From NCBI GenBank assembly GCA_029706075.1, contig JAINUG010000382.1, positions 450,531 through 514,530 of the forward strand: 64,000 nt of DNA, written 5' to 3'. Source of the stretch: Aldrovandia affinis (lineage: Eukaryota; Chordata; Actinopteri; Notacanthiformes; Halosauridae). Below, piece after piece: positions 41,148-61,809 of the stretch. Numbering within the stretch: the first letter of the stretch is position 1; each line of letters opens with the position of its first letter. Made by a program: the position numbers and the translations under genes. Below the pieces are notes generated by a model. It was not told where the DNA came from and searched no databases. It saw only the letters and a list, made by a program, of their open reading frames with translations.

Positions 41148-41417
41148 CTCCCTCACCTGTTGTTGGATAGATTAAAAACTCCTGCTCCAACGCACAGTCA
41201 AGAGTCACAGGGGTAAAGTTGTCTTCTGTCGATCCAGTGCTTGTTTGAAATGTCAAAGTAATTGAATGTACAGAGTCACAGAATATTTCAAGATGGCTGC
41301 AAGGGCATGATGAAGGTGACCTTGTAGGCACTGAGGTAGAAACTGATCTTGACTGTGTATTGGAGCAGGAGTTTTTAGTCTATCCAACAACAGGCGAGGG
41401 AGAAAATAGACGCGTCG

Positions 41418-41489
41418 TTCCCTGACCGGGAATCGAACCCGGGCCGCGGCGGTGAAAGCGCCGAATCCTAACCACTAGACCACCAGGGA
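41418..41489 (-). tRNA. tRNA-Glu(TTC), unit 1
   Basis: 72-nt cloverleaf, reading on the minus strand TCCCTGG...TCAGGGA with discriminator A. A-box is TGGTCTAGTGG, anticodon loop CTTTCAC (anticodon TTC) and B-box GGTTCGATTCC. It decodes GAA, with GAG by wobble. The acceptor stem has one G-T pair at position 7. A TTTT terminator follows 13 nt downstream (aaaa at 41403-41406 on the plus strand). This is the reference copy for the TTC genes; no intron. Confidence 0.95.
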
Positions 41490-41740
41490 TTGCACTGCAA
41501 AGATGGAGTTGGATCAGTTCTCCAGTCTACTGACATGACATTTCAAAACATGTTGACCTCACAGCTTGCTACTTATCCTCTCAATCATCAGGTATCCACC
41601 CCTGGAAGAGCCATAACCAAGTCCCAGTCCATGGGACAAGATCTGTACTAGTTAAGTGGCCGTGACATTAATCATAACATAACCTGTCACTTTTCTGCAT
41701 GATGAGCAGAGTTTTACAAGCTGATAGAAAAAGAAGGCAC

Positions 41741-41826
41741 TCCTTCGAGCCGGATTTGAACCAGCGACCTAAGGATAACCCGTTAACAACTACAGTCCTC
41801 CGCTCTACCAACTGAGCTATCGAAGG
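41741..41826 (-). tRNA. tRNA-Tyr(GTA) with 13-nt intron, unit 1 type a
   Basis: On the minus strand CCTTCGA...TCGAAGG plus discriminator A. A-box TAGCTCAGTTGG, anticodon GTA in loop CTGTAGA, B-box GGTTCAAATCC. The mature tRNA is 73 nt. The intron follows the base 3' of the anticodon, the standard eukaryotic site; tRNA-Tyr genes are normally intron-containing in vertebrates. This copy's intron is 13 nt, one base shorter than all the others (ACGGGTT instead of ACGTGGTT). Pol III T5 terminator about 11 nt downstream. Confidence 0.94.
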
Positions 41827-42043
41827 CACTCTTCATAGCTTTAAAATTGTGGCATTTTTCTAGAAGGACATCTGTACTAACGTACATCTTTTACATCTTC
41901 AGTTGGATCAGTTCTCCAGTCTACTGACATGACATTTCAAAACATCCTCACAACTCTATTGAGATTTTTTCGCCTTCACCGTTCAATTCCTCAGTGATCA
42001 TTCGACATACAGGCCGTACCCCTTTTCCATAGCTGAAGTCCTA

Positions 42044-42115
42044 TCCCTGATGGTCTAGTGGTTAGGATTCGGCGCTCTCACCGCCGCGGCCCGGGTTCGA
42101 TTCCCGGTCAGGGAA
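42044..42115 (+). tRNA. tRNA-Glu(CTC), unit 1 type a
   Basis: 72 nt, TCCCTGA...TCAGGGA plus A, with a fully Watson-Crick acceptor stem. Anticodon loop CTCTCAC, anticodon CTC at 42077-42079, anticodon stem CGGCG/CGCCG, T-arm CCGGG/TTCGATT/CCCGG. It decodes GAG. A TTTT terminator lies 8 nt downstream. It is divergent from the Tyr gene on its left and convergent with the one on its right. Reference copy for the CTC genes. Confidence 0.95.
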
Positions 42116-42420
42116 AGACATCTTTTGCTCCTCAACAGTTTTGTCTCCCTCACCTGTTGTTGGATAGATTAAAAACTCCTGCAGGAGTTGGATCAGTTCT
42201 CCAGTCTACTGACATGACATTTCAAAGCATGTTGACCTCACAGCTTGCTACTTATCCTCTCAATCATCAGGTATCCACCCCTGGAAGAGCCATAACCAAG
42301 TCCCAGTCCATGGGACAAGATCTGTACTAGTTAAGTGGCCGTGACATTAGTCATAACATAACCTGTCACTTTTCTGCATGATGAGCAGAGTTTTACAAGC
42401 TGATAGAAAAAAGAAGGCAC

Positions 42421-42507
42421 TCCTTCGAGCCGGATTTGAACCAGCGACCTAAGGATAACCACGTTAACAACTACAGTCCTCCGCTCTACCAACTGAGCTA
42501 TCGAAGG
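42421..42507 (-). tRNA. tRNA-Tyr(GTA) with 14-nt intron, unit 1 type b
   Basis: 87 nt. The intron TTGTTAACGTGGTT is the form found in all remaining copies and contains the palindrome GTTAAC. T6 terminator downstream (aaaaaa at 42407-42412 on the plus strand). 5' flank carries the b-type 'cttttcacagc' variant. Confidence 0.95.
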
Positions 42508-42666
42508 CACTTTTCACAGCTTTAAAATTGTGCCATTTTTCTAGAAGGACATCTGTACTAACATACACCCTCACAACTCTGTTGAGATTTTTTCGCCTTC
42601 ACCGTTCAATTCCTCAGTGATCATTTGACATACAGGCCGTACCCCTTTTCCATAGCTGAAGTCCTA

Positions 42667-42738
42667 TCCCTGATGGTCTAGTGGTTAGGATTCGGCGCTC
42701 TCACCGCCGCGGCCCGGGTTCGATTCCCGGTCAGGGAA
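42667..42738 (+). tRNA. tRNA-Glu(CTC), unit 1 type b
   Basis: Sequence identical to the reference CTC gene. Its 3' flank reads acgtctattgc, so the first TTTT is about 27 nt downstream rather than 8. It faces the next Glu(TTC) gene across an imperfect inverted repeat. Confidence 0.95.
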
Positions 42739-43050
42739 AGACGTCTATTGCTCCTCAACAGTTTTGGCTCTCCCTCACCTGTTGTTGGATAGATTAAAAA
42801 CTCCTGCTCCAACGCACAGTCAAGAGTCACAGGGGTAAAGTTGTCTTCTGTCGATCCAGTGCTTGTTTGAAATGTCAAAGTAATTGAATGTACAGAGTCA
42901 CAGAATATTTCAAGATGGCTGCAAGGGCATGATGAAGGTGACCTTGTAGGCACTGAGGTAGAAACTGATCTTGACTGTGTATTGGAGCAGGAGTTTTTAG
43001 TCTATCCAACAACAGGCGAGGGAGAGAAAATAGACGTCGTTCCCTGACCG
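42731..43050. repeat. Inverted repeat joining convergent Glu(CTC) and Glu(TTC), unit example
   Basis: The 3' flank of Glu(CTC) (gacgtctattg...ctctccctcacctgttgttggatagattaaaaactcctgctccaa) reappears in reverse complement as the 3' flank of the minus-strand Glu(TTC) (ctcctgctccaata at about 42980, cgcctgttgttggatagactaaaaac at 42995-43020, tagacgtc at 43031-43038). With the two tRNA genes the arms approach 170 bp each; the centre of about 140 bp is unique. The same arrangement occurs in every unit. Confidence 0.9.
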
Positions 43051-43111
43051 GGAATCGAACCCGAGCCGCGGCGGTGAAAGCGCCGAATCCTAACCACTAG
43101 ACCACCAGGGA
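43040..43111 (-). tRNA. tRNA-Glu(TTC), unit 2
   Basis: 72 nt. One change in the T-stem (C49 to T in the tRNA sense) turns a C-G into a T-G wobble; otherwise as unit 1. Confidence 0.93.
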
Positions 43112-43363
43112 TTGCACTGCAAAGATGGAGTTGGATCAGTTCTCCAGTCTACTGACATGACATTTCAAAACATGTTGACCTCACAGCTTGCTACTTATCC
43201 TCTCAATCATCAGGTATCCACCCCTGGAAGAGCCATAACCAAGTCCCAGTCCATGGGACAAGATCTGTACTAGTTAAGTGGCCGTGACATTAATCATAAC
43301 ATAACCTGTCACTTTTCTGCATGATGAGCAGAGTTTTACAAGCTGATAGAAAAAAGAAGGCAC

Positions 43364-43450
43364 TCCTTCGAGCCGGATTTGAACCAGCGACCTAAGGATA
43401 ACCACGTTAACAACTACAGTCCTCCGCTCTACCAACTGAGCTATCGAAGG
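43364..43450 (-). tRNA. tRNA-Tyr(GTA), unit 2 type a
   Basis: 87 nt with the standard 14-nt intron; no change seen against the consensus. Confidence 0.95.
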
Positions 43451-43666
43451 CACTCTTCATAGCTTTAAAATTGTGGCATTTTTCTAGAAGGACATCTGTA
43501 CTAACGTACATCTTTTACATCTTCAGTTGGATCAGTTCTCCAGTCTACTGACATGACATTTCAAAACATCCTCACAACTCTATTGAGATTTTTTCGCCTT
43601 CACCGTTCAATTCCTCAGTGATCATTCGACATACAGGCCGTACCCTTTTCCATAGCTGAAGTCCTA

Positions 43667-43736
43667 TCCCTGATGGTCTAGTGGTTAGGATTCGGCGCTC
43701 ACCGCCGCGGCCCGGGTTCGATTCCCGGTCAGGGAA
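43667..43736 (+). pseudogene. tRNA-Glu(CTC), unit 2 type a, damaged anticodon loop
   Basis: 70 nt. Two bases (TC) are missing from the anticodon loop, leaving a 5-nt loop CTCAC, which cannot present a normal anticodon. The rest is intact. Either a real loss of function or a consensus error. Confidence 0.7.
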
Positions 43737-44041
43737 AGACATCTTTTGCTCCTCAACAGTTTTGTCTCCCTCACCTGTTGTTGGATAGATTAAAAACTCC
43801 TGCAGGAGTTGGATCAGTTCTCCAGTCTACTGACATGACATTTCAAAGCATGTTGACCTCACAGCTTGCTACTTATCCTCTCAATCATCAGGTATCCACC
43901 CCTGGAAGAGCCATAACCAAGTCCCAGTCCATGGGACAAGATCTGTACTAGTTAAGTGGCCGTGACATTAGTCATAACATAACCTGTCACTTTTCTGCAT
44001 GATGAGCAGAGTTTTACAAGCTGATAGAAAAAAGAAGGCAC

Positions 44042-44128
44042 TCCTTCGAGCCGGATTTGAACCAGCGACCTAAGGATAACCACGTTAACAACTACAGTCC
44101 TCCGCTCTACCAACTGAGCTATCGAAGG
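44042..44128 (-). tRNA. tRNA-Tyr(GTA), unit 2 type b
   Basis: 87 nt, consensus sequence with 14-nt intron. Confidence 0.95.
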
Positions 44129-44287
44129 CACTTTTCACAGCTTTAAAATTGTGCCATTTTTCTAGAAGGACATCTGTACTAACATACACCCTCACAACTC
44201 TGTTGAGATTTTTTCGCCTTCACCGTTCAATTCCTCAGTGATCATTTGACATACAGGCCGTACCCCTTTTCCATAGCTGAAGTCCTA

Positions 44288-44358
44288 TCCCTGATGGTCT
44301 AGTGGTTAGGATTCGGCGCTCTCACCGCCGCGCCCGGGTTCGATTCCCGGTCAGGGAA
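44288..44358 (+). tRNA. tRNA-Glu(CTC), unit 2 type b
   Basis: 71 nt. One G is missing from the variable region (CGCGCCC for CGCGGCCC). All stems still pair. Confidence 0.75.
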
Positions 44359-44658
44359 AGACGTCTATTGCTCCTCAACAGTTTTGGCTCTCCCTCACCT
44401 GTTGTTGGATAGATTAAAAACTCCTGCTCCAACGCACAGTCAAGAGTCACAGGGTAAAGTTGTCTTCTGTCGATCCAGTGCTTGTTTGAAATGTCAAAGT
44501 AATTGAATGTACAGAGTCACAGAATATTTCAAGATGGCTGCAAGGGCATGATGAAGGTGACCTTGTAGGCACTGAGGTAGAAACTGATCTTGACTGTGTA
44601 TTGGAGCAGGAGTTTTTAGTCTATCCAACAACAGGCGAGGGAGAGAAAATAGACGTCG

Positions 44659-44730
44659 TTCCCTGACCGGGAATCGAACCCGGGCCGCGGCGGTGAAAGC
44701 GCCGAATCCTAACCACTAGACCACCAGGGA
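44659..44730 (-). tRNA. tRNA-Glu(TTC), unit 3
   Basis: 72 nt, consensus. Confidence 0.95.
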
Positions 44731-44982
44731 TTGCACTGCAAAGATGGAGTTGGATCAGTTCTCCAGTCTACTGACATGACATTTCAAAACATGTTGACCT
44801 CACAGCTTGCTACTTATCCTCTCAATCATCAGGTATCCACCCCTGGAAGAGCCATAACCAAGTCCCAGTCCATGGGACAAGATCTGTACTAGTTAAGTGG
44901 CCGTGACATTAATCATAACATAACCTGTCACTTTTCTGCATGATGAGCAGAGTTTTACAAGCTGATAGAAAAAAGAAGGCAC

Positions 44983-45069
44983 TCCTTCGAGCCGGATTTG
45001 AACCAGCGACCTAAGGATAACCACGTTAACAACTACAGTCCTCCGCTCTACCAACTGAGCTATCGAAGG
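44983..45069 (-). tRNA. tRNA-Tyr(GTA), unit 3 type a
   Basis: 87 nt, consensus. The 5' flank reads 'actcttcacagc', a mix of the a and b variants. Confidence 0.95.
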
Positions 45070-45207
45070 CACTCTTCACAGCTTTAAAATTGTGGCATTT
45101 TTCTAGAAGGACATCTGTACTAACGTACATCTTTTACATCTTCAGTTGGATCAGTTCTCCAGTCTACTGACATGACATTTCAAAACATCCTCACAACTCT
45201 ATTGAGA

Positions 45208-45226
45208 TTTTTTTTTTTTTTTTTTT
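45208..45226. repeat. T19 tract replacing spacer sequence in unit 3
   Basis: In other units this place reads six T then 'cgccttcaccg'. Here the T-run extends through it for 19 bases. A similar T16 tract occurs in the b spacer at 50703-50718. Confidence 0.9.
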
Positions 45227-45286
45227 CAATTCCTCAGTGATCATTCGACATACAGGCCGTACCCCTTTTCCATAGCTGAAGTCCTA

Positions 45287-45358
45287 TCCCTGATGGTCTA
45301 GTGGTTAGGATTCGGCGCTCTCACCGCCGCGGCCCGGGTTCGATTCCCGGTCAGGGAA
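45287..45358 (+). tRNA. tRNA-Glu(CTC), unit 3 type a
   Basis: 72 nt, consensus. The upstream spacer carries the T19 tract about 60 bp away. Confidence 0.95.
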
Positions 45359-45663
45359 AGACATCTTTTGCTCCTCAACAGTTTTGTCTCCCTCACCTGT
45401 TGTTGGATAGATTAAAAACTCCTGCAGGAGTTGGATCAGTTCTCCAGTCTACTGACATGACATTTCAAAGCATGTTGACCTCACAGCTTGCTACTTATCC
45501 TCTCAATCATCAGGTATCCACCCCTGGAAGAGCCATAACCAAGTCCCAGTCCATGGGACAAGATCTGTACTAGTTAAGTGGCCGTGACATTAGTCATAAC
45601 ATAACCTGTCACTTTTCTGCATGATGAGCAGAGTTTTACAAGCTGATAGAAAAAAGAAGGCAC

Positions 45664-45750
45664 TCCTTCGAGCCGGATTTGAACCAGCGACCTAAGGATA
45701 ACCACGTTAACAACTACAGTCCTCCGCTCTACCAACTGAGCTATCGAAGG
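45664..45750 (-). tRNA. tRNA-Tyr(GTA), unit 3 type b
   Basis: 87 nt, consensus. Confidence 0.95.
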
Positions 45751-45909
45751 CACTTTTCACAGCTTTAAAATTGTGCCATTTTTCTAGAAGGACATCTGTA
45801 CTAACATACACCCTCACAACTCTGTTGAGATTTTTTCGCCTTCACCGTTCAATTCCTCAGTGATCATTTGACATACAGGCCGTACCCCTTTTCCACAGCT
45901 GAAGTCCTA

Positions 45910-45982
45910 TCCCTGATGGTCTAGTGGTTAGGATTCGGCGCTCTCACCGCCCGCGGCCCGGGTTCGATTCCCGGTCAGGGAA
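45910..45982 (+). tRNA. tRNA-Glu(CTC), unit 3 type b
   Basis: 73 nt. One extra C in the 3' anticodon strand or variable region (CCGCCCGCGG) weakens the outermost pair of the anticodon stem. Confidence 0.65.
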
Positions 45983-46282
45983 AGACGTCTATTGCTCCTC
46001 AACAGTTTTGGCTCTCCCTCACCTGTTGTTGGATAGATTAAAAACTCCTGCTCCAACGCACAGTCAAGAGTCACAGGGGTAAAGTTGTCTTCTGTCGATC
46101 CAGTGCTTGTTTGAAATGTCAAAGTAATTGAATGTACAGAGTCACAGAATATTTCAAGATGGCTGCAAGGGCATGATGAAGGTGACCTTGTAGGCACTGA
46201 GGTAGAAACTGATCTTGACTGTGTATTGGAGCAGGAGTTTTTAGTCTATCCAACAACAGGCGAGGAGAGAAAATAGACGTCG

Positions 46283-46354
46283 TTCCCTGACCGGGAATCG
46301 AACCCGGGCCGCGGCGGTGAAAGCGCCGAATCCTAACCACTAGACCACCAGGGA
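46283..46354 (-). tRNA. tRNA-Glu(TTC), unit 4
   Basis: 72 nt, consensus. Confidence 0.95.
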
Positions 46355-46605
46355 TTGCACTGCAAAGATGGAGTTGGATCAGTTCTCCAGTCTACTGACA
46401 TGACATTTCAAAACATGTTGACCTCACAGCTTGCTACTTATCCTCTCAATCATCAGGTATCCACCCCTGGAAGAGCCATAACCAAGTCCCAGTCCATGGG
46501 ACAAGATCTGTACTAGTTAAGTGGCCGTGACATTAATCATAACATAACCTGTCACTTTTCTGCATGATGAGCAGAGTTTTACAAGCTGATAGAAAAAGAA
46601 GGCAC

Positions 46606-46692
46606 TCCTTCGAGCCGGATTTGAACCAGCGACCTAAGGATAACCACGTTAACAACTACAGTCCTCCGCTCTACCAACTGAGCTATCGAAGG
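46606..46692 (-). tRNA. tRNA-Tyr(GTA), unit 4 type a
   Basis: 87 nt, consensus. Confidence 0.95.
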
Positions 46693-46909
46693 CACTCTTC
46701 ATAGCTTTAAAATTGTGGCATTTTTCTAGAAGGACATCTGTACTAACGTACATCTTTTACATCTTCAGTTGGATCAGTTCTCCAGTCTACTGACATGACA
46801 TTTCAAAACATCCTCACAACTCTATTGAGATTTTTTCGCCTTCACCGTTCAATTCCTCAGTGATCATTCGACATACAGGCCGTACCCCTTTTCCATAGCT
46901 GAAGTCCTA

Positions 46910-46981
46910 TCCCTGATGGTCTAGTGGTTAGGATTCGGCGCTCTCACCGCCGCGGCCCGGGTTCGATTCCCGGTCAGGGAA
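46910..46981 (+). tRNA. tRNA-Glu(CTC), unit 4 type a
   Basis: 72 nt, consensus. Confidence 0.95.
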
Positions 46982-47288
46982 AGACATCTTTTGCTCCTCA
47001 ACAGTTTTGTCTCCCTCACCTGTTGTTGGATAGATTAAAAACTCCTGCAGGAGTTGGATCAGTTCTCCAGTCTACTGACATGACATTTCAAAGCATGTTG
47101 ACCTCACAGCTTGCTACTTATCCTCTCAATCATCAGGTATCCACCCCTGGAAGAGCCATAACCAAGTCCCAGTCCATGGGACAAGATCTGTACTAGTTAA
47201 GTGGCCGTGACATTTCAGTCATAACATAACCTGTCACTTTTCTGCATGATGAGCAGAGTTTTACAAGCTGATAGAAAAAAGAAGGCAC

Positions 47289-47375
47289 TCCTTCGAGCCG
47301 GATTTGAACCAGCGACCTAAGGATAACCACGTTAACAACTACAGTCCTCCGCTCTACCAACTGAGCTATCGAAGG
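47289..47375 (-). tRNA. tRNA-Tyr(GTA), unit 4 type b
   Basis: 87 nt, consensus. Two extra bases occur in its distal 3' spacer ('gacatttcagtcat' near 47208). Confidence 0.95.
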
Positions 47376-47534
47376 CACTTTTCACAGCTTTAAAATTGTG
47401 CCATTTTTCTAGAAGGACATCTGTACTAACATACACCCTCACAACTCTGTTGAGATTTTTTCGCCTTCACCGTTCAATTCCTCAGTGATCATTTGACATA
47501 CAGGCCGTACCCCTTTTCCATAGCTGAAGTCCTA

Positions 47535-47606
47535 TCCCTGATGGTCTAGTGGTTAGGATTCGGCGCTCTCACCGCCGCGGCCCGGGTTCGATTCCCGGTC
47601 AGGGAA
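47535..47606 (+). tRNA. tRNA-Glu(CTC), unit 4 type b
   Basis: 72 nt, consensus. Confidence 0.95.
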
Positions 47607-47904
47607 AGACGTCTATTGCTCCTCAACAGTTTTGGCTCTCCCTCACCTGTTGTTGGATAGATTAAAAACTCCTGCTCCAACGCACAGTCAAGAGTCACAG
47701 GGGTAAAGTTGTCTTCTGTCGATCCAGTGCTTGTTTGAAATGTCAAAGTAATTGAATGTACAGAGTCACAGAATATTTCAAGATGGCTGCAAGGGCATGA
47801 TGAAGGTGACCTTGTAGGCACTGGTAGAAACTGATCTTGACTGTGTATTGGAGCAGGAGTTTTTAGTCTATCCAACAACAGGCGAGGAGAGAAAATAGAC
47901 GTCG

Positions 47905-47975
47905 TTCCTGACCGGGAATCGAACCCGGGCCGCGGCGGTGAAAGCGCCGAATCCTAACCACTAGACCACCAGGGA
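47905..47975 (-). tRNA. tRNA-Glu(TTC), unit 5
   Basis: 71 nt. One base is missing from the 3' acceptor strand (TCAGGAA), so one acceptor pair is lost. Confidence 0.6.
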
Positions 47976-48225
47976 TTGCACTGCAAAGATGGAGTTGGAT
48001 CAGTTCTCCAGTCTACTGACATGACATTTCAAAACATGTTGACCTCACAGCTTGCTACTTATCCTCTCAATCATCAGGTATCCACCCTGGAAGAGCCATA
48101 ACCAAGTCCCAGTCCATGGGACAAGATCTGTACTAGTTAAGTGGCCGTGACATTAATCATAACATAACCTGTCACTTTTCTGCATGATGAGCAGAGTTTT
48201 ACAAGCTGATAGAAAAAGAAGGCAC

Positions 48226-48312
48226 TCCTTCGAGCCGGATTTGAACCAGCGACCTAAGGATAACCACGTTAACAACTACAGTCCTCCGCTCTACCAACTG
48301 AGCTATCGAAGG
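48226..48312 (-). tRNA. tRNA-Tyr(GTA), unit 5 type a
   Basis: 87 nt, consensus. Confidence 0.95.
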
Positions 48313-48529
48313 CACTCTTCATAGCTTTAAAATTGTGGCATTTTTCTAGAAGGACATCTGTACTAACGTACATCTTTTACATCTTCAGTTGGATCAGTTC
48401 TCCAGTCTACTGACATGACATTTCAAAACATCCTCACAACTCTATTGAGATTTTTTCGCCTTCACCGTTCAATTCCTCAGTGATCATTCGACATACAGGC
48501 CGTACCCCTTTTCCATAGCTGAAGTCCTA

Positions 48530-48601
48530 TCCCTGATGGTCTAGTGGTTAGGATTCGGCGCTCTCACCGCCGCGGCCCGGGTTCGATTCCCGGTCAGGGA
48601 A
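48530..48601 (+). tRNA. tRNA-Glu(CTC), unit 5 type a
   Basis: 72 nt, consensus. Confidence 0.95.
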
Positions 48602-48906
48602 AGACATCTTTTGCTCCTCAACAGTTTTGTCTCCCTCACCTGTTGTTGGATAGATTAAAAACTCCTGCAGGAGTTGGATCAGTTCTCCAGTCTACTGACA
48701 TGACATTTCAAAGCATGTTGACCTCACAGCTTGCTACTTATCCTCTCAATCATCAGGTATCCACCCCTGGAAGAGCCATAACCAAGTCCCAGTCCATGGG
48801 ACAAGATCTGTACTAGTTAAGTGGCCGTGACATTAGTCATAACATAACCTGTCACTTTTCTGCATGATGAGCAGAGTTTTACAAGCTGATAGAAAAAAGA
48901 AGGCAC

Positions 48907-48993
48907 TCCTTCGAGCCGGATTTGAACCAGCGACCTAAGGATAACCACGTTAACAACTACAGTCCTCCGCTCTACCAACTGAGCTATCGAAGG
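48907..48993 (-). tRNA. tRNA-Tyr(GTA), unit 5 type b
   Basis: 87 nt, consensus. Confidence 0.95.
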
Positions 48994-49152
48994 CACTTTT
49001 CACAGCTTTAAAATTGTGCCATTTTTCTAGAAGGACATCTGTACTAACATACACCCTCACAACTCTGTTGAGATTTTTTCGCCTTCACCGTTCAATTCCT
49101 CAGTGATCATTTGACATACAGGCCGTACCCCTTTTCCACAGCTGAAGTCCTA

Positions 49153-49225
49153 TCCCTGATGGTCTAGTGGTTAGGATTCGGCGCTCTCACCACCCGCGGC
49201 CCGGGTTCGATTCCCGGTCAGGGAA
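49153..49225 (+). pseudogene. tRNA-Glu(CTC), unit 5 type b, weakened anticodon stem
   Basis: 73 nt. CCACCCGCGG replaces CCGCCGCGG: a substitution and an inserted C leave only about three pairs in the anticodon stem. It shares the insertion site with the b gene at 45910, and both upstream flanks read 'ttccacagctgaag' where others have 'ttccatagctgaag', so these two copies are related. Confidence 0.6.
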
Positions 49226-49526
49226 AGACGTCTATTGCTCCTCAACAGTTTTGGCTCTCCCTCACCTGTTGTTGGATAGATTAAAAACTCCTGCTCCAAC
49301 GCACAGTCAAGAGTCACAGGGGTAAAGTTGTCTTCTGTCGATCCAGTGCTTGTTTGAAATGTCAAAGTAATTGAATGTACAGAGTCACAGAATATTTCAA
49401 GATGGCTGCAAGGGCATGATGAAGGTGACCTTGTAGGCACTGAGGTAGAAACTGATCTTGACTGTGTATTGGAGCAGGAGTTTTTAGTCTATCCAACAAC
49501 AGGCGAGGGAGAGAAAATAGACGTCG

Positions 49527-49598
49527 TTCCCTGACCGGGAATCGAACCCGGGCCGCGGCGGTGAAAGCGCCGAATCCTAACCACTAGACCACCAGGGA
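49527..49598 (-). tRNA. tRNA-Glu(TTC), unit 6
   Basis: 72 nt, consensus. Confidence 0.95.
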
Positions 49599-53188: not shown

Positions 53189-53405
53189 CACTCTTCATAG
53201 CTTTAAAATTGTGGCATTTTTCTAGAAGGACATCTGTACTAACGTACATCTTTTACATCTTCAGTTGGATCAGTTCTCCAGTCTACTGACATGACATTTC
53301 AAAACATCCTCACAACTCTATTGAGATTTTTTCGCCTTCACCGTTCAATTCCTCAGTGATCATTCGACATACAGGCCGTACCCCTTTTCCATAGCTGAAG
53401 TCCTA

Positions 53406-53478
53406 TCCCTGATGGTCTAGTGGTTAGGATTCGGCGCTCTCACCGCCGCGTGCCCGGGTTCGATTCCCGGTCAGGGAA
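53406..53478 (+). tRNA. tRNA-Glu(CTC), unit 8 type a
   Basis: 73 nt. One inserted T in the variable region (CGCGTGCCC); stems intact. Confidence 0.75.
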
Positions 53479-53781
53479 AGACATCTTTTGCTCCTCAACA
53501 GTTTTGTCTCCCTCACCTGTTGTTGGATAGATTAAAAACTCCTGCAGGAGTTGGATCAGTTCTCCAGTCTACTGACATGACATTTCAAAGCATGTTGACC
53601 TCACAGCTTGCTACTTATCCTCTCAATCATCAGGTATCCACCCCTGGAAGAGCCATAACCAAGTCCCAGTCCATGGGACAAGATCTGTACTAGTTAAGGC
53701 CGTGACATTAGTCATAACATAACCTGTCACTTTTCTGCATGATGAGCAGAGTTTTACAAGCTGATAGAAAAAAGAAGGCAC

Positions 53782-53868
53782 TCCTTCGAGCCGGATTTGA
53801 ACCAGCGACCTAAGGATAACCACGTTAACAACTACAGTCCTCCGCTCTACCAACTGAGCTATCGAAGG
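53782..53868 (-). tRNA. tRNA-Tyr(GTA), unit 8 type b
   Basis: 87 nt, consensus. Confidence 0.95.
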
Positions 53869-54025
53869 CACTTTTCACAGCTTTAAAATTGTGCCATTTT
53901 TCTAGAAGGACATCTGTACTAACATACCCTCACAACTCTGTTGAGATTTTTTCGCCTTCACCGTTCAATTCCTCAGTGATCATTTGACATACAGGCCGTA
54001 CCCCTTTTCCATAGCTGAAGTCCTA

Positions 54026-54098
54026 TCCCTGATGGTCTAGTGGTTAGGATTCGGCGCTCTCACCGCCGCGGCCCCGGGTTCGATTCCCGGTCAGGGAA
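54026..54098 (+). tRNA. tRNA-Glu(CTC), unit 8 type b
   Basis: 73 nt. One extra C in the C-run before the T-stem; stems intact. Confidence 0.78.
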
Positions 54099-54399
54099 AG
54101 ACGTCTATTGCTCCTCAACAGTTTTGGCTCTCCCTCACCTGTTGTTGGATAGATTAAAAACTCCTGCTCCAACGCACAGTCAAGAGTCACAGGGGTAAAG
54201 TTGTCTTCTGTCGATCCAGTGCTTGTTTGAAATGTCAAAGTAATTGAATGTACAGAGTCACAGAATATTTCAAGATGGCTGCAAGGGCATGATGAAGGTG
54301 ACCTTGTAGGCACTGAGGTAGAAACTGATCTTGACTGTGTATTGGAGCAGGAGTTTTTAGTCTATCCAACAACAGGCGAGGGAGAGAAAATAGACGTCG

Positions 54400-54471
54400 T
54401 TCCCTGACCGGGAATCGAACCCGGGCCGCGGCGGTGAAAGCGCCGAATCCTAACCACTAGACCACCAGGGA
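54400..54471 (-). tRNA. tRNA-Glu(TTC), unit 9
   Basis: 72 nt, consensus; the rightmost fully intact TTC gene. Confidence 0.95.
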
Positions 54472-54722
54472 TTGCACTGCAAAGATGGAGTTGGATCAGT
54501 TCTCCAGTCTACTGACATGACATTTCAAAACATGTTGACCTCACAGCTTGCTACTTATCCTCTCAATCATCAGGTATCCACCCCTGGAAGAGCCATAACC
54601 AAGTCCCAGTCCATGGGACAAGATCTGTACTAGTTAAGTGGCCGTGACATTAATCATAACATAACCTGTCACTTTTCTGCATGATGAGCAGAGTTTTACA
54701 AGCTGATAGAAAAAGAAGGCAC

Positions 54723-54809
54723 TCCTTCGAGCCGGATTTGAACCAGCGACCTAAGGATAACCACGTTAACAACTACAGTCCTCCGCTCTACCAACTGAGC
54801 TATCGAAGG
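54723..54809 (-). tRNA. tRNA-Tyr(GTA), unit 9 type a
   Basis: 87 nt, consensus. Confidence 0.95.
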
Positions 54810-55026
54810 CACTCTTCATAGCTTTAAAATTGTGGCATTTTTCTAGAAGGACATCTGTACTAACGTACATCTTTTACATCTTCAGTTGGATCAGTTCTCC
54901 AGTCTACTGACATGACATTTCAAAACATCCTCACAACTCTATTGAGATTTTTTCGCCTTCACCGTTCAATTCCTCAGTGATCATTCGACATACAGGCCGT
55001 ACCCCTTTTCCATAGCTGAAGTCCTA

Positions 55027-55098
55027 TCCCTGATGGTCTAGTGGTTAGGATTCGGCGCTCTCACCGCCGCGGCCCGGGTTCGATTCCCGGTCAGGGAA
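55027..55098 (+). tRNA. tRNA-Glu(CTC), unit 9 type a
   Basis: 72 nt, consensus. Confidence 0.95.
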
Positions 55099-55403
55099 AG
55101 ACATCTTTTGCTCCTCAACAGTTTTGTCTCCCTCACCTGTTGTTGGATAGATTAAAAACTCCTGCAGGAGTTGGATCAGTTCTCCAGTCTACTGACATGA
55201 CATTTCAAAGCATGTTGACCTCACAGCTTGCTACTTATCCTCTCAATCATCAGGTATCCACCCCTGGAAGAGCCATAACCAAGTCCCAGTCCATGGGACA
55301 AGATCTGTACTAGTTAAGTGGCCGTGACATTAGTCATAACATAACCTGTCACTTTTCTGCATGATGAGCAGAGTTTTACAAGCTGATAGAAAAAAGAAGG
55401 CAC

Positions 55404-55490
55404 TCCTTCGAGCCGGATTTGAACCAGCGACCTAAGGATAACCACGTTAACAACTACAGTCCTCCGCTCTACCAACTGAGCTATCGAAGG
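55404..55490 (-). tRNA. tRNA-Tyr(GTA), unit 9 type b
   Basis: 87 nt, consensus. Confidence 0.95.
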
Positions 55491-55649
55491 CACTTTTCAC
55501 AGCTTTAAAATTGTGCCATTTTTCTAGAAGGACATCTGTACTAACATACACCCTCACAACTCTGTTGAGATTTTTTCGCCTTCACCGTTCAATTCCTCAG
55601 TGATCATTTGACATACAGGCCGTACCCCTTTTCCATAGCTGAAGTCCTA

Positions 55650-55721
55650 TCCCTGATGGTCTAGTGGTTAGGATTCGGCGCTCTCACCGCCGCGGCCCGG
55701 GTTCGATTCCCGGTCAGGGAA
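55650..55721 (+). tRNA. tRNA-Glu(CTC), unit 9 type b
   Basis: 72 nt, consensus. Confidence 0.95.
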
Positions 55722-56024
55722 AGACGTCTATTGCTCCTCAACAGTTTTGGCTCTCCCTCACCTGTTGTTGGATAGATTAAAAACTCCTGCTCCAACGCAC
55801 AGTCAAGAGTCACAGGGGTAAAAAGTTGTCTTCTGTCGATCCAGTGCTTGTTTGAAATGTCAAAGTAATTGAATGTACAGAGTCACAGAATATTTCAAGA
55901 TGGCTGCAAGGGCATGATGAAGGTGACCTTGTAGGCACTGAGGTAGAAACTGATCTTGACTGTGTATTGGAGCAGGAGTTTTTAGTCTATCCAACAACAG
56001 GCGAGGGAGAGAAAATAGACGTCG

Positions 56025-56094
56025 TTCCCTGACGGGAATCGAACCCGGCCGCGGCGGTGAAAGCGCCGAATCCTAACCACTAGACCACCAGGGA
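56025..56094 (-). pseudogene. tRNA-Glu(TTC), unit 10, two deletions
   Basis: 70 nt. One base is missing from the 3' T-strand/acceptor junction (CCCGTCAGGG) and one from the variable region (GGCCGGG). The T-arm and acceptor register is disturbed; anticodon TTC kept. Confidence 0.6.
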
Positions 56095-56345
56095 TTGCAC
56101 TGCAAAGATGGAGTTGGATCAGTTCTCCAGTCTACTGACATGACATTTCAAAACATGTTGACCTCACAGCTTGCTACTTATCCTCTCAATCATCAGGTAT
56201 CCACCCCTGGAAGAGCCATAACCAAGTCCCAGTCCATGGGACAAGATCTGTACTAGTTAAGTGGCCGTGACATTAATCATAACATAACCTGTCACTTTTC
56301 TGCATGATGAGCAGAGTTTTACAAGCTGATAGAAAAAGAAGGCAC

Positions 56346-56432
56346 TCCTTCGAGCCGGATTTGAACCAGCGACCTAAGGATAACCACGTTAACAACTACA
56401 GTCCTCCGCTCTACCAACTGAGCTATCGAAGG
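56346..56432 (-). tRNA. tRNA-Tyr(GTA), unit 10 type a
   Basis: 87 nt, consensus. Confidence 0.95.
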
Positions 56433-56649
56433 CACTCTTCATAGCTTTAAAATTGTGGCATTTTTCTAGAAGGACATCTGTACTAACGTACATCTTTTAC
56501 ATCTTCAGTTGGATCAGTTCTCCAGTCTACTGACATGACATTTCAAAACATCCTCACAACTCTATTGAGATTTTTTCGCCTTCACCGTTCAATTCCTCAG
56601 TGATCATTCGACATACAGGCCGTACCCCTTTTCCATAGCTGAAGTCCTA

Positions 56650-56723
56650 TCCCTGATGGTCTAGTGGTTAGGATTTGTTGGCGCTCTCACCGCCGCAGCC
56701 CGGGTTCGATTCCCGGTCAGGAA
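56650..56723 (+). pseudogene. tRNA-Glu(CTC), unit 10 first module, damaged
   Basis: 74 nt. GGATTTGTTGGCG replaces GGATTCGGCG before the anticodon loop (+3), CGCAG replaces CGCGG, and one G is lost from the acceptor end (TCAGGAA). The anticodon stem and acceptor are both impaired. Confidence 0.72.
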
Positions 56724-56791
56724 AGACATCTTTTGCTCCTCAACAGTTTTGTCTCCCTCACCTGTTGTTGGATAGATTAAAAACTCCTGCA

Positions 56792-56834
56792 GGAGTTGGA
56801 TCAGTTCTCCAGTCTACTGACATGACATTTCAAA
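56792..56834. repeat. 43-bp recombination repeat at the module-duplication junction
   Basis: The sequence starting ggagttggatcagttctcc occurs three times in each normal unit: after Glu(TTC), in the a-type divergent spacer (from gttgg), and after Glu(CTC)-a. Here the left side matches the flank of Glu(CTC)-a (ctcctgca), while everything right of it (aaaacatgttgacc, gacattaatcat) matches the flank of Glu(TTC). The crossover therefore lies within this block. Confidence 0.88.
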
Positions 56835-57027
56835 ACATGTTGACCTCACAGCTTGCTACTTATCCTCTCAATCATCAGGTATCCACCCCTGGAAGAGCCA
56901 TAACCAAGTCCCAGTCCATGGGACAAGATCTGTACTAGTTAAGTGGCCGTGACATTAATCATAACATAACCTGTCACTTTTCTGCATGATGAGCAGAGTT
57001 TTACAAGCTGATAGAAAAAGAAGGCAC

Positions 57028-57114
57028 TCCTTCGAGCCGGATTTGAACCAGCGACCTAAGGATAACCACGTTAACAACTACAGTCCTCCGCTCTACCAAC
57101 TGAGCTATCGAAGG
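57028..57114 (-). tRNA. tRNA-Tyr(GTA), unit 10 extra type-a module
   Basis: 87 nt, consensus. An additional gene, giving unit 10 three Tyr genes. Confidence 0.95.
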
Positions 57115-57331
57115 CACTCTTCACAGCTTTAAAATTGTGGCATTTTTCTAGAAGGACATCTGTACTAACGTACATCTTTTACATCTTCAGTTGGATCAGT
57201 TCTCCAGTCTACTGACATGACATTTCAAAACATCCTCACAACTCTATTGAGATTTTTTCGCCTTCACCGTTCAATTCCTCAGTGATCATTCGACATACAG
57301 GCCGTACCCCTTTTCCATAGCTGAAGTCCTA

Positions 57332-57401
57332 TCCCTGATGGTCTAGTGGTTAGGATTCGGCGCTCTCACCGCCGCGGCCCGGGTTCGATTCGGTCAGGGA
57401 A
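57332..57401 (+). pseudogene. tRNA-Glu(CTC), unit 10 extra module, T-stem deletion
   Basis: 70 nt. CC is missing from the 3' T-strand (GATTCGGTC for GATTCCCGGTC), breaking the T-stem and B-box 3' end. The anticodon arm is intact. The same deletion occurs in 61182-61249. Confidence 0.7.
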
Positions 57402-57704
57402 AGACATCTTTTGCTCCTCAACAGTTTTGTCTCCCACCTGTTGTTGGATAGATCACAAACTCCTGCAGGAGTTGGATCAGTTCTCCAGTCTACTGACATG
57501 ACATTTCAAAGCATGTTGACCTCACAGCTTGCTACTTATCCTCTCAATCATCAGGTATCCACCCCTGGAAGAGCCATAACCAAGTCCCAGTCCATGGGAC
57601 AAGATCTGTACTAGTTAAGTGGCCGTGACATTAGTCATAACATAACCTGTCACTTTTCTGCATGATGAGCAGAGTTTTACAAGCTGATAGAAAAAAGAAG
57701 GCAC

Positions 57705-57791
57705 TCCTTCGAGCCGGATTTGAACCAGCGACCTAAGGATAACCACGTTAACAACTACAGTCCTCCGCTCTACCAACTGAGCTATCGAAGG
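57705..57791 (-). tRNA. tRNA-Tyr(GTA), unit 10 type b
   Basis: 87 nt, consensus. Confidence 0.95.
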
Positions 57792-57949
57792 CACTTTTCA
57801 CAGCTTTAAAATTGTGCCATTTTTCTAGAAGGACATCTGTACTAACATACACCCTCACAACTCTGTTGAGATTTTTTCGCCTTCACCGTTCAATTCCTCA
57901 GTGATCATTTGACATACAGGCCGTACCCTTTTCCATAGCTGAAGTCCTA

Positions 57950-58020
57950 TCCCTGATGGTCTAGTGGTTAGGATTCGGCGCTCTCACCCGCGCGCCCGGG
58001 TTCGATTCCCGGTCAGGGAA
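57950..58020 (+). pseudogene. tRNA-Glu(CTC), unit 10 type b, anticodon stem disrupted
   Basis: 71 nt. After the loop the sequence is CCGCGCGCCC instead of CGCCGCGGCCC, leaving mismatches in the anticodon stem. Confidence 0.6.
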
Positions 58021-58318
58021 AGACGTCTATTGCTCCTCAACAGTTTTGGCTCTCCCTCACCTGTTGTGGATAGATTAAAAACTCCTGCTCCAACGCAGTC
58101 AAGAGTCACAGGGGTAAAGTTGTCTTCTGTCGATCCAGTGCTTGTTTGAAATGTCAAAGTAATTGAATGTACAGAGTCACAGAATATTTCAAGATGGCTG
58201 CAAGGGCATGATGAAGGTGACCTTGTAGGCACTGAGGTAGAAACTGATCTTGACTGTGTATTGGAGCAGGAGTTTTTAGTCTATCCAACAACAGGCGAGG
58301 GAGAGAAAATAGACGTCG

Positions 58319-58389
58319 TTCCCTGACCGGGAATCGACCCGGGCCGCGGCGGTGAAAGCGCCGAATCCTAACCACTAGACCACCAGGGA
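58319..58389 (-). tRNA. tRNA-Glu(TTC), unit 11
   Basis: 71 nt. One T of the conserved TTC in the T-loop is missing (GGGTCGATTCCC), which also shortens the B-box. Confidence 0.6.
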
Positions 58390-58639
58390 TTGCACTGCAA
58401 AGATGGAGTTGGATCAGTTCTCCAGTCTACTGACATGACATTTCAAAACATGTTGACCTCACAGCTTGCTACTTATCCTCTCAATCATCAGGTATCCACC
58501 CTGGAAGAGCCATAACCAAGTCCCAGTCCATGGGACAAGATCTGTACTAGTTAAGTGGCCGTGACATTAATCATAACATAACCTGTCACTTTTCTGCATG
58601 ATGAGCAGAGTTTTACAAGCTGATAGAAAAAGAAGGCAC

Positions 58640-58726
58640 TCCTTCGAGCCGGATTTGAACCAGCGACCTAAGGATAACCACGTTAACAACTACAGTCCTC
58701 CGCTCTACCAACTGAGCTATCGAAGG
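58640..58726 (-). tRNA. tRNA-Tyr(GTA), unit 11 type a
   Basis: 87 nt, consensus. Confidence 0.95.
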
Positions 58727-58943
58727 CACTCTTCATAGCTTTAAAATTGTGGCATTTTTCTAGAAGGACATCTGTACTAACGTACATCTTTTACATCTTC
58801 AGTTGGATCAGTTCTCCAGTCTACTGACATGACATTTCAAAACATCCTCACAACTCTATTGAGATTTTTTCGCCTTCACCGTTCAATTCCTCAGTGATCA
58901 TTCGACATACAGGCCGTACCCCTTTTCCATAGCTGAAGTCCTA

Positions 58944-59015
58944 TCCCTGATGGTCTAGTGGTTAGGATTCGGCGCTCTCACCGCCGCGGCCCGGGTTCGA
59001 TTCCCGGTCAGGGAA
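58944..59015 (+). tRNA. tRNA-Glu(CTC), unit 11 type a
   Basis: 72 nt, consensus. Confidence 0.95.
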
Positions 59016-59319
59016 AGACATCTTTTGCTCCTCAACAGTTTTGTCTCCCTCACCTGTTGTTGGATAGATTAAAAACTCCTGCAGGAGTTGGATCAGTTCT
59101 CCAGTCTACTGACATGACATTTCAAAGCATGTTGACCTCACAGCTTGCTACTTATCCTCTCAATCATCAGGTATCCACCCTGGAAGAGCCATAACCAAGT
59201 CCCAGTCCATGGGACAAGATCTGTACTAGTTAAGTGGCCGTGACATTAGTCATAACATAACCTGTCACTTTTCTGCATGATGAGCAGAGTTTTACAAGCT
59301 GATAGAAAAAAGAAGGCAC

Positions 59320-59406
59320 TCCTTCGAGCCGGATTTGAACCAGCGACCTAAGGATAACCACGTTAACAACTACAGTCCTCCGCTCTACCAACTGAGCTAT
59401 CGAAGG
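59320..59406 (-). tRNA. tRNA-Tyr(GTA), unit 11 type b
   Basis: 87 nt, consensus. Confidence 0.95.
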
Positions 59407-59562
59407 CACTTTTCACAGCTTTAAAATTGTGCCATTTTTCTAGAAGGACATCTGTACTAATACACCCTCACAACTCTGTTGAGATTTTTTCGCCTTCACC
59501 GTTCAATTCCTCAGTGATCATTTGACATACAGGCCGTACCCTTTTCCATAGCTGAAGTCCTA

Positions 59563-59634
59563 TCCCTGATGGTCTAGTGGTTAGGATTCGGCGCTCTCAC
59601 CGCCGCGGCCCGGGTTCGATTCCCGGTCAGGGAA
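59563..59634 (+). tRNA. tRNA-Glu(CTC), unit 11 type b
   Basis: 72 nt, consensus. Confidence 0.95.
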
Positions 59635-59934
59635 AGACGTCTATTGCTCCTCAACAGTTTTGGCTCTCCCTCACCTGTTGTTGGATAGATTAAAAACTCC
59701 TGCTCCAACGCACAGTCAAGAGTCACAGGGGTAAAGTTGTCTTCTGTCGATCCAGTGCTTGTTTGAAATGTCAAAGTAATTGAATGTACAGAGTCACAGA
59801 ATATTTCAAGATGGCTGCAAGGGCATGATGAAGGTGACCTTGTAGGCACTGAGGTAGAAACTGATCTTGACTGTGTATTGGAGCAGGAGTTTTTAGTCTA
59901 TCCAACAACAGGCGAGGAGAGAAAATAGACGTCG

Positions 59935-60004
59935 TTCCTGACCGGGAATCGAACCCGGCCGCGGCGGTGAAAGCGCCGAATCCTAACCACTAGACCACCA
60001 GGGA
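59935..60004 (-). tRNA. tRNA-Glu(TTC), unit 12
   Basis: 70 nt. One base is lost in the acceptor 3' strand (as in unit 5) and one in the variable region. Confidence 0.55.
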
Positions 60005-60255
60005 TTGCACTGCAAAGATGGAGTTGGATCAGTTCTCCAGTCTACTGACATGACATTTCAAAACATGTTGACCTCACAGCTTGCTACTTATCCTCTCAAT
60101 CATCAGGTATCCACCCCTGGAAGAGCCATAACCAAGTCCCAGTCCATGGGACAAGATCTGTACTAGTTAAGTGGCCGTGACATTAATCATAACATAACCT
60201 GTCACTTTTCTGCATGATGAGCAGAGTTTTACAAGCTGATAGAAAAAGAAGGCAC

Positions 60256-60342
60256 TCCTTCGAGCCGGATTTGAACCAGCGACCTAAGGATAACCACGTT
60301 AACAACTACAGTCCTCCGCTCTACCAACTGAGCTATCGAAGG
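60256..60342 (-). tRNA. tRNA-Tyr(GTA), unit 12 type a
   Basis: 87 nt, consensus. Confidence 0.95.
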
Positions 60343-60559
60343 CACTCTTCATAGCTTTAAAATTGTGGCATTTTTCTAGAAGGACATCTGTACTAACGTA
60401 CATCTTTTACATCTTCAGTTGGATCAGTTCTCCAGTCTACTGACATGACATTTCAAAACATCCTCACAACTCTATTGAGATTTTTTCGCCTTCACCGTTC
60501 AATTCCTCAGTGATCATTCGACATACAGGCCGTACCCCTTTTCCATAGCTGAAGTCCTA

Positions 60560-60631
60560 TCCCTGATGGTCTAGTGGTTAGGATTCGGCGCTCTCACCGC
60601 TGCGGCCCGGGTTCGATTCCCGGTCAGGGAA
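60560..60631 (+). tRNA. tRNA-Glu(CTC), unit 12 type a
   Basis: 72 nt with one C-to-T change in the anticodon stem (CGCTG), giving a G-T wobble; fold retained. Confidence 0.9.
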
Positions 60632-60936
60632 AGACATCTTTTGCTCCTCAACAGTTTTGTCTCCCTCACCTGTTGTTGGATAGATTAAAAACTCCTGCAG
60701 GAGTTGGATCAGTTCTCCAGTCTACTGACATGACATTTCAAAGCATGTTGACCTCACAGCTTGCTACTTATCCTCTCAATCATCAGGTATCCACCCCTGG
60801 AAGAGCCATAACCAAGTCCCAGTCCATGGGACAAGATCTGTACTAGTTAAGTGGCCGTGACATTAGTCATAACATAACCTGTCACTTTTCTGCATGATGA
60901 GCAGAGTTTTACAAGCTGATAGAAAAAAGAAGGCAC

Positions 60937-61023
60937 TCCTTCGAGCCGGATTTGAACCAGCGACCTAAGGATAACCACGTTAACAACTACAGTCCTCCGC
61001 TCTACCAACTGAGCTATCGAAGG
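60937..61023 (-). tRNA. tRNA-Tyr(GTA), unit 12 type b
   Basis: 87 nt, consensus. Confidence 0.95.
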
Positions 61024-61181
61024 CACTTTTCACAGCTTTAAAATTGTGCCATTTTTCTAGAAGGACATCTGTACTAACATACACCCTCACAACTCTGTTG
61101 AGATTTTTCGCCTTCACCGTTCAATTCCTCAGTGATCATTTGACATACAGGCCGTACCCCTTTTCCATAGCTGAAGTCCTA

Positions 61182-61249
61182 TCCCTGATGGTCTAGTGGT
61201 TAGGATTCGGCGCTCACCGCCCGCGGCCGGGTTCGATTCGGTCAGGGAA
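61182..61249 (+). pseudogene. tRNA-Glu(CTC), unit 12 type b, heavily damaged
   Basis: 68 nt, the most altered copy. TC is lost from the anticodon loop (as at 43667), one C gained and one lost in the variable region, and CC lost from the T-stem (as at 57332). Flanks are normal. Confidence 0.78.
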
Positions 61250-61550
61250 AGACGTCTATTGCTCCTCAACAGTTTTGGCTCTCCCTCACCTGTTGTTGGA
61301 TAGATTAAAAACTCCTGCTCCAACGCACAGTCAAGAGTCACAGGGGTAAAGTTGTCTTCTGTCGATCCAGTGCTTGTTTGAAATGTCAAAGTAATTGAAT
61401 GTACAGAGTCACAGAATATTTCAAGATGGCTGCAAGGGCATGATGAAGGTGACCTTGTAGGCACTGAGGTAGAAACTGATCTTGACTGTGTATTGGAGCA
61501 GGAGTTTTTAGTCTATCCAACAACAGGCGAGGGAGAGAAAATAGACGTCG

Positions 61551-61621
61551 TTCCCTGACCGGGAATCGAACCCGGCCGCGGCGGTGAAAGCGCCGAATCC
61601 TAACCACTAGACCACCAGGGA
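61551..61621 (-). tRNA. tRNA-Glu(TTC), partial unit 13
   Basis: 71 nt. One base lost in the variable region; stems and anticodon intact. Last tRNA gene; array homology stops 106 bp later at 61727. Confidence 0.8.
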
Positions 61622-61809
61622 TTGCACTGCAAAGATGGAGTTGGATCAGTTCTCCAGTCTACTGACATGACATTTCAAAACATGTTGACCTCACAGCTTG
61701 CTACTTATCCTCTCAATCATCAGGTATAGGGCTCATTGGCTCCATAAACAGATGTTGTTAATTGGACAGTCTGACCTGTTAGAAAGTCAGACTGACGTAA
61801 GTGGCTTAA

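Follow-up and report, generated by a model that had tools for sequence, protein, structure and literature searches.

Positions 41148 to 61727 of a 64,000-nucleotide stretch of the genome of the fish Aldrovandia affinis (contig JAINUG010000382.1; hereafter, the window) are occupied by an array of transfer RNA (tRNA) genes for glutamate (Glu) and tyrosine (Tyr). We favor, with moderate confidence, the reading that the array is genuine, a tandem series of RNA polymerase III genes that multiplies Glu and Tyr tRNA genes, and that it was built from an older Tyr/Glu unit by inverted duplication with a change of anticodon, dimerization, amplification, and unequal exchange; the same degree of confidence covers the whole account, including the transcription in oocytes and early embryos proposed below.

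A blastn census, using the array's three tRNAs as queries, placed 63 loci on both strands of this interval: 13 Glu-TTC and 25 Tyr-GTA loci on the minus strand and 25 Glu-CTC loci on the plus strand. The counts and the span are identical to those given in an earlier reading of the bare sequence (the original prediction), and the edges at 41148 and 61727 are consistent with the repeat structure. ARAGORN, with introns allowed, called 61 of the 63 loci (missing those at 51481 and 61182), 60 of them with the expected anticodon; the locus at 43667 was read as a selenocysteine tRNA because of a 2-nt gap. At its gathering threshold, Rfam reported 57 loci; of the six absences, one or more represent filter loss, the locus at 43667 receiving 51.5 bits in a smaller search. 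As a control, ARAGORN found one gene in total over 10 mononucleotide shuffles of the array. All 63 loci are followed by a terminator of at least four thymines 7 to 24 nt downstream, and 60 retain the B box; the A-box pattern matched the Tyr consensus and neither Glu consensus, a limitation of the pattern used. Introns of 13 to 14 nt are present in all 24 Tyr loci called by ARAGORN. Judged by these sequence features, the array genes appear to possess the internal promoter and terminator needed for transcription. Exact copies of the respective consensus account for 41 of the 63 loci (23 of 25 Tyr, 12 of 25 CTC, and 6 of 13 TTC). Tandem Repeats Finder, with a period limit of 500, did not detect the array, and a permissive Rfam search on one unit yielded no additional RNA family of note.

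The anatomy, with mixed strands and a fixed higher-order unit, had also been described correctly. Several isotypes recur in a fixed head-to-tail order, namely TTC(-), Tyr(-), CTC(+), Tyr(-), CTC(+), within a unit that has a consensus length of 1,623 bp; Tyr and CTC form divergent pairs, with spacers of approximately 217 and 159 bp, while CTC converges with Tyr or TTC across spacers of approximately 305 and 301 bp, respectively. The twelve units of about 1,622 bp that had been proposed hold as a count of complete units, measured from TTC to TTC, but not as a uniform series: 11 share the five-gene order, one contains seven genes, and the array ends in a final TTC gene. Unit 1 (41148 to 42769) comprises TTC (41418 to 41489, minus strand), Tyr (41741 to 41826, minus), CTC (42044 to 42115, plus), Tyr (42421 to 42507, minus), and CTC (42667 to 42738, plus). 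It is followed by the five-gene units 2 (42770 to 44389), 3 (44390 to 46013), 4 (46014 to 47637), 5 (47638 to 49256), 6 (49257 to 50887), 7 (50888 to 52508), 8 (52509 to 54129), and 9 (54130 to 55752), the last of which shows zero differences from the unit consensus. Unit 10 (55753 to 58051) is the seven-gene unit, with an extra Tyr/CTC pair (TTC at 56025, Tyr at 56346, CTC at 56650, Tyr at 57028, CTC at 57332, Tyr at 57705, and CTC at 57950); its right edge, and with it the left edge of unit 11, was set by spacer offset. Units 11 (58052 to 59665) and 12 (59666 to 61280) again contain five genes, and the last CTC locus of unit 12 (61182 to 61249) has the lowest identity to the consensus in the blastn census. 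The terminal partial unit (61281 to 61727) consists of a Glu-TTC gene (61551 to 61621, minus strand) and 106 bp beyond it.

A second contig, C1486 (11,686 bp), is array almost throughout and begins and ends inside array sequence. It holds at least 27 loci (6 TTC, 12 Tyr, and 9 CTC), some of them interrupted by masked stretches, as well as a seven-gene unit of its own, and at approximately 9384 to 11385 it carries, within one arm of the kind described below, a transposon-like insertion of about 2 kb with short inverted termini, of which the array in the window has no counterpart. This contig represents either the other allele or a part of the array left unassembled. The copy number read from the window is therefore sound for one contig (63 loci) but does not settle the total for the genome.

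The spacer between the convergent CTC and TTC genes is itself an inverted repeat. In the consensus alignment, Glu-CTC with its 3' flank (157 nt) and Glu-TTC with its 3' flank (141 nt) differ by 7 mismatches and 2 gaps, and the homology continues uninterrupted across the boundary of gene and flank. The flanks of the arms alone give an alignment score of 101, versus 13.4 +/- 2.1 in 500 shuffles (maximum, 23), whereas the 5' flanks of the two genes are unrelated (score of 12, versus 13.3 +/- 2.0 in 200 shuffles). A representative pair of arms is formed by Glu-CTC plus 85 bp of 3' flank at 42667 to 42823 (plus strand) and by Glu-TTC (43040 to 43111) plus 69 bp of 3' flank at 42971 to 43111 (minus strand). 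Glu-TTC and its 3' flank thus appear to be an inverted copy of the adjacent Glu-CTC. The two Glu genes differ at the first anticodon base and at base 7, which is A in 25 of 25 CTC loci and G in 13 of 13 TTC loci. It is common for isoacceptors to shift at the first anticodon position, Glu being among the isotypes reported (PMC3923123); the present case is alike in that its Glu isoacceptors differ at that position and unlike the reported shifts in that the altered copy forms one inverted arm of a unit that has been amplified, with conversion by a dispersed TTC gene as a possible source. Since a dispersed gene on contig C621 matches all 72 nt of the array TTC gene, both the anticodon and G7 may stem from such a conversion rather than from two substitutions.

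To place these changes in order, we turned to decayed relatives of the unit elsewhere in the assembly (1.22 Gb in 2,576 contigs), for which all counts of repeat matches are lower bounds. The loop between the arms (query, 42813 to 42960, plus strand) has at least 23 matches: 13 on the window's contig, 6 on C1486, and 4 divergent ones (87 to 93% identity) on contigs C1079, C2122, C1608, and C702. Relatives on C1079, C1608, C2122, and C113 display the order Tyr(-), short spacer, Glu(+), at approximately 72 to 96% identity to pieces of the array, and C1079 and C1608 are 96% alike across 2.9 kb. All six Glu genes of these relatives have a CTC anticodon and A at base 7, no Glu gene on the opposite strand occurs in the stretches examined of these four contigs, and the 58-bp insertion found in the longer Tyr-CTC spacer of the array is missing from them. 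On C1079, C1608, and C2122, Glu is followed by the arm and then by the loop, oriented as if read from the TTC side of the array; in alignment, Glu plus flank reaches 357, 296.5, and 350.5, respectively, against the TTC side versus 211.5, 176, and 195 against the CTC side. ARAGORN called no gene on the first stretches examined of C1079, C2122, and C1608, and one Glu-CTC gene on C113. Because the Glu genes of the relatives are all CTC and none is inverted, an inverted copy with a TTC anticodon was probably gained within the array, from an older unit without a TTC gene. A further observation is that, at the end of C702, the loop segment directly adjoins a Tyr gene (97.6% over 82 nt), an arrangement unlike that of the array.

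The unit can in turn be read as a dimer of two half-units. In the half without TTC, the arm joins directly onto the segment upstream of Tyr (as in the CTC-to-Tyr spacer at 42116 to 42420), and the loop seen in the relatives on C1079, C1608, and C2122 is gone; the other half has the inverted TTC arm and, between Tyr and CTC, the extra 58 bp, of which 45 nt repeat the TTC-Tyr segment. Fixed differences between the halves amount to 10 substitutions and 2 small indels over 457 bp (approximately 2.2%), a third fixed indel in one count being an artifact of where the halves were cut. The idea that the half without TTC had once possessed the TTC arm and lost it was discarded, given that those three relatives possess an arm and a loop but no inverted Glu, and loss of the loop therefore suffices. 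The 2:1:2 ratio of CTC, TTC, and Tyr, which the original prediction took for a supplied dose, is better read as a by-product of one half-unit having gained an inverted Glu; a purposeful dose is unsupported, and the genes identical to consensus number 12 CTC to 6 TTC to 23 Tyr.

Traces of unequal exchange are visible in the seven-gene unit. Its spacer at 56725 to 57027 starts as the CTC-Tyr type and then shows the TTC-Tyr state at three of three diagnostic sites (111, 234, and 291), although the state at site 291 is also present in one other copy and lies within an A-run, making that site weak evidence when taken alone. Such a recombinant would be the product expected from an out-of-register exchange between half-units. 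Together with 10 substitutions in 15,318 bp of spacer, it suggests that unequal exchange has both kept the array near-identical and altered its length. We therefore propose the following course of events. The ancestral unit would have consisted of Tyr(-), a short spacer, Glu-CTC(+), a 3' arm, and the loop, as is still visible in the decayed relatives. In the lineage of the array, an inverted copy of Glu, arm, and loop would have arisen, and the inverted Glu would have become TTC with G7, either through two changes of its own or through conversion by a dispersed Glu-TTC such as the identical gene on C621. Two half-units would then have formed the dimer, one with the inverted TTC arm and the 58-bp insertion and the other losing the loop, and amplification of this dimer in register would have followed, accompanied at least once by an exchange out of register.

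Differences private to individual copies have another character than those fixed between half-units. Compared with the consensus of their spacer type, copies show 42 indels alongside the 10 substitutions, of which six are isolated: two are the sites of the recombinant, another two represent the same half-unit diagnostic site seen in each of two copies, and the remaining pair is a single site common to two copies. Fixed differences are rich in substitutions and private ones rich in indels (P = 1.8e-5), and the contrast persists (P = 1.2e-5) when pieces of one event are counted once and the cut artifact is removed, which leaves 38 indels as private and 2 as fixed. The 42 indels include three pieces each of two replacements of C, G, or A by T, in units 3 and 6; the total of spacer events was 65 in one count and 52 in another, as aligners place gaps differently. 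In these two replacements (consensus positions 825 to 835 and 1448 to 1457), 9 and 8 non-T bases are changed to T with the length unaltered, which looks like a consensus artifact. Per kilobase, TTC genes have 15.0 events, CTC genes 13.9, Tyr genes 0.9, and spacers 4.2, the Tyr genes being less variable than the spacers (Fisher P = 0.014). Events are clustered (18 of 21 in CTC fall at positions 26 to 47, and 6 of 12 in TTC at positions 46 to 48) in GC-rich short repeats, and some TTC "substitutions" at positions 70 and 72 look like single-G deletions shifted by the gene boundaries used. Transcription-associated mutation was considered as the source of the high Glu variation and set aside, as the Tyr genes of the same units do not show it. 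Given the clustering in GC-rich short repeats, consensus error is at least as likely, and given the richness in indels, many private indels, and hence many of the changes that would make Glu loci appear to be pseudogenes, may be errors of the assembly consensus. Variant Glu-CTC loci are distributed evenly over the half-units (6 of 13 in the half with TTC and 7 of 12 in the other). The same contrast between genes recurs on C1486, where CT is missing from the anticodon region of 5 of 9 Glu-CTC loci while the uncut Tyr genes are near perfect.

Multi-isotype tRNA arrays are already known from human, zebrafish, Arabidopsis, and Entamoeba, and what is new here is a legible construction history. At human 1q23.3, a 7.3-kb unit with five tRNA genes (Leu, Gly/Glu, Gly, Asp) on both strands is present in 9 to 43 units per allele (PMC4041453). 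That locus resembles the present array in the number of genes per unit, in its mixed isotypes including Glu, in the use of both strands, and in the near identity of its units; it is flanked by LTR (long terminal repeat) elements, and an LTR-like stretch, recognized by eye, lies beside the right edge of our array. It differs in having a GC-rich, CTCF-bound unit with Leu, Gly, Glu, Gly, and Asp instead of Glu and Tyr genes, and the part of its published description used here contains no inverted Glu pair (PMC4041453). Teleosts reportedly possess tRNA clusters with fifty and more members (PMC2888827); like the array, those of zebrafish are large and heterogeneous, and array-encoded isodecoders occur there in eggs and early embryos (PMC2888827, PMC11417395). 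The Ser-Tyr-Tyr cluster of Arabidopsis shares a short multigene unit, intron-bearing Tyr genes, tandem expansion, and variant copies, but is a plant locus with Ser and Tyr genes and is silenced in most tissues (PMC12308677). In Entamoeba, 25 types of array have been described, whose tandem units combine several isotypes and contain up to 5 tRNA genes (6 genes in one E. invadens array), but nearly all tRNA genes are arrayed, and the intergenic repeats of E. histolytica and E. dispar are short (PMC2652664). At least two dense clusters of tRNA-Cys(GCA) exist in the A. affinis genome itself, one with 8 tRNA genes, one of them Trp, in 3.1 kb (C1369:785749-789214) and another with 7 and 12 tRNA genes in two stretches examined (C2400:3506772-3514594). 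Tyr and Glu genes are joined in an Entamoeba array. To call a mixed-isotype, mixed-strand array unusual, as had been done, was consequently an overstatement. Searches of the open-license literature of PubMed Central listed no Glu-Tyr array of this design. Highly repeated tRNA genes are removed from reference sets by the GtRNAdb filter (PMC11417395).

As to function, analogy with other vertebrates suggests that the genes would be transcribed mainly in oocytes and early embryos, and their likeliest role would be to raise Glu and Tyr tRNA there. In zebrafish, isodecoders of the egg and early embryo derive from repetitive regions and later ones from scattered genes, while those expressed at every stage have gene copies of both kinds (PMC11417395); in Xenopus, oocyte and somatic types of tRNA genes are distinguished (PMC3565088). 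The first 39 nt of the A7 Glu-CTC gene were found in at least 15 places, 13 on the window's contig and 2 on C1486, and since the window alone has 21 copies, these matches do not prove absence elsewhere. The first 37 nt of the Tyr gene were found in at least 49 places, at least 17 of them outside both array contigs. The array Tyr was accordingly rejected as an expression marker, its exons being shared with dispersed copies such as the Tyr genes on C2280.

Several observations weigh against the account that we favor. Dispersed loci also carry the exons of the array Tyr genes and the TTC gene of the array, and because zebrafish isodecoders encoded both in repetitive regions and by scattered genes are expressed at all stages, only A7 Glu-CTC is a clear early-only candidate. 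Just 18 of the 38 Glu loci are identical to their consensus (20 differ). The observed/expected CpG ratio of the spacers is 0.29, versus 0.42 in the left flank, a low value that would also fit long-term methylation. Frequent neighbors reported among the tRNA genes of Danio are K-N, K-S, and R-T, and nearly all adjacent pairs there are reportedly parallel, whereas here neighbors are Glu and Tyr, both divergent and convergent (PMC2888827). Finally, the proposed order of events would be one of parsimony, given that the four relatives, two of them nearly duplicates of each other, are decayed.

A stronger version of the account, which we put forward tentatively and think rather less probable, would make the array a germline-specific supply locus for Glu and Tyr: an inverted copy of A7 Glu-CTC would have gained TTC (with G7, perhaps by conversion), the convergent pair would have been fixed in the amplified unit, and tRNAs for both Glu codons and for Tyr would come from one homogenized array of varying copy number with an A7 Glu-CTC isodecoder of its own. 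Similarly possible, if doubtful, is a neutral or selfish satellite that grew by unequal exchange with its genes as mostly silent passengers, as in the Arabidopsis Ser-Tyr-Tyr cluster. Such a satellite would explain why spacers are homogenized along with genes and are CpG poor, why so many Glu loci (20 of 38) deviate from consensus, and why older relatives have decayed, and it has a precedent in the silencing of the Arabidopsis cluster in most tissues (PMC12308677). It sits less well with the retention of terminators at 63 of 63 loci or with Tyr genes that vary less than spacers, although a lower error rate in the Tyr genes would give the same result; moreover, even the Arabidopsis cluster, mostly silenced, is active in specific root-tip cells, so that both silence and restricted use are possible (PMC12308677).

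That insulation is the main effect of the array, as proposed for the human 1q23.3 repeat, seems improbable; this chromatin-boundary function would have a CTCF-associated human precedent (PMC4041453), and the array lies approximately 34 kb beyond GABA-A (gamma-aminobutyric acid type A) receptor beta-type exons at 2732 to 3097 and 6304 to 6705 (Pfam Neur_chan_memb; best solved match, beta-1). We regard it as very unlikely that arms and loop constitute a foldback element or MITE (miniature inverted-repeat transposable element) that spread while carrying or capturing Glu genes: the four divergent loop copies, the resemblance of the arms to terminal inverted repeats, and the different arrangement of loop and Tyr on C702 would agree with it, but the homology continues from flank into the tRNA gene, and on C1079, C1608, and C2122, the loop forms part of the Glu/Tyr unit, next to one arm, rather than of a separate two-ended element. 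Least likely of all is that one or a few real units were multiplied by the assembler, for while private differences (42 indels versus 6 isolated substitutions) are too dominated by indels to certify individual copies, the longest exact repeat at offsets of at least 600 bp is 1,167 bp without any exact multiunit duplicate, the recombinant unit and two substitution sites, each common to two copies, also count against it, and the array on C1486 has its own insertion of about 2 kb, which makes it more likely that the assembly is too short or holds two alleles.

On its left side, the array appears to begin inside a dispersed repeat: the last 24 nt before it (41124 to 41147) recur on the other strand at 26417 to 26440, near one (26323 to 26376) of four UnaL2 LINE (long interspersed nuclear element) tails that Rfam detects in the window. 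Farther left, an inverted repeat of approximately 360 bp (40501 to 40854 and 39437 to 39795; 89% identity) may extend further, as the query began at 40501, and its first part also matches 27036 to 27168. Also outside the array are a degenerate tRNA-Asp(GTC)-like locus (37908 to 37979 or, in another call, 37914 to 37979; Rfam, 33.5 bits) and an open frame with the helix-turn-helix of a Tc3-type transposase (33066 to 33452; Pfam PF01498). On the right, the LTR-like stretch (61728 to 61805 and 63335 to 64000), with AATAAA and a primer-binding-like sequence, contains a segment of approximately 65 bp twice (76% identity) and is split by a TTAA-flanked element (61806 to 63334) with inverted termini (CCCTCTGAGG ... 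CCTCAGGGGG) that is piggyBac-like in form.

For work on this and similar loci, our analysis advises caution, in that neither "pseudogenes" nor copy number should be read off one assembled contig. It also supplies one candidate marker base, A7 in Glu-CTC, with which use of the array could be tested. The locus and its decayed relatives would together record how a tRNA array was built, from an old Tyr/Glu unit through an inverted copy with a new anticodon to a dimer, its amplification, and unequal exchange.

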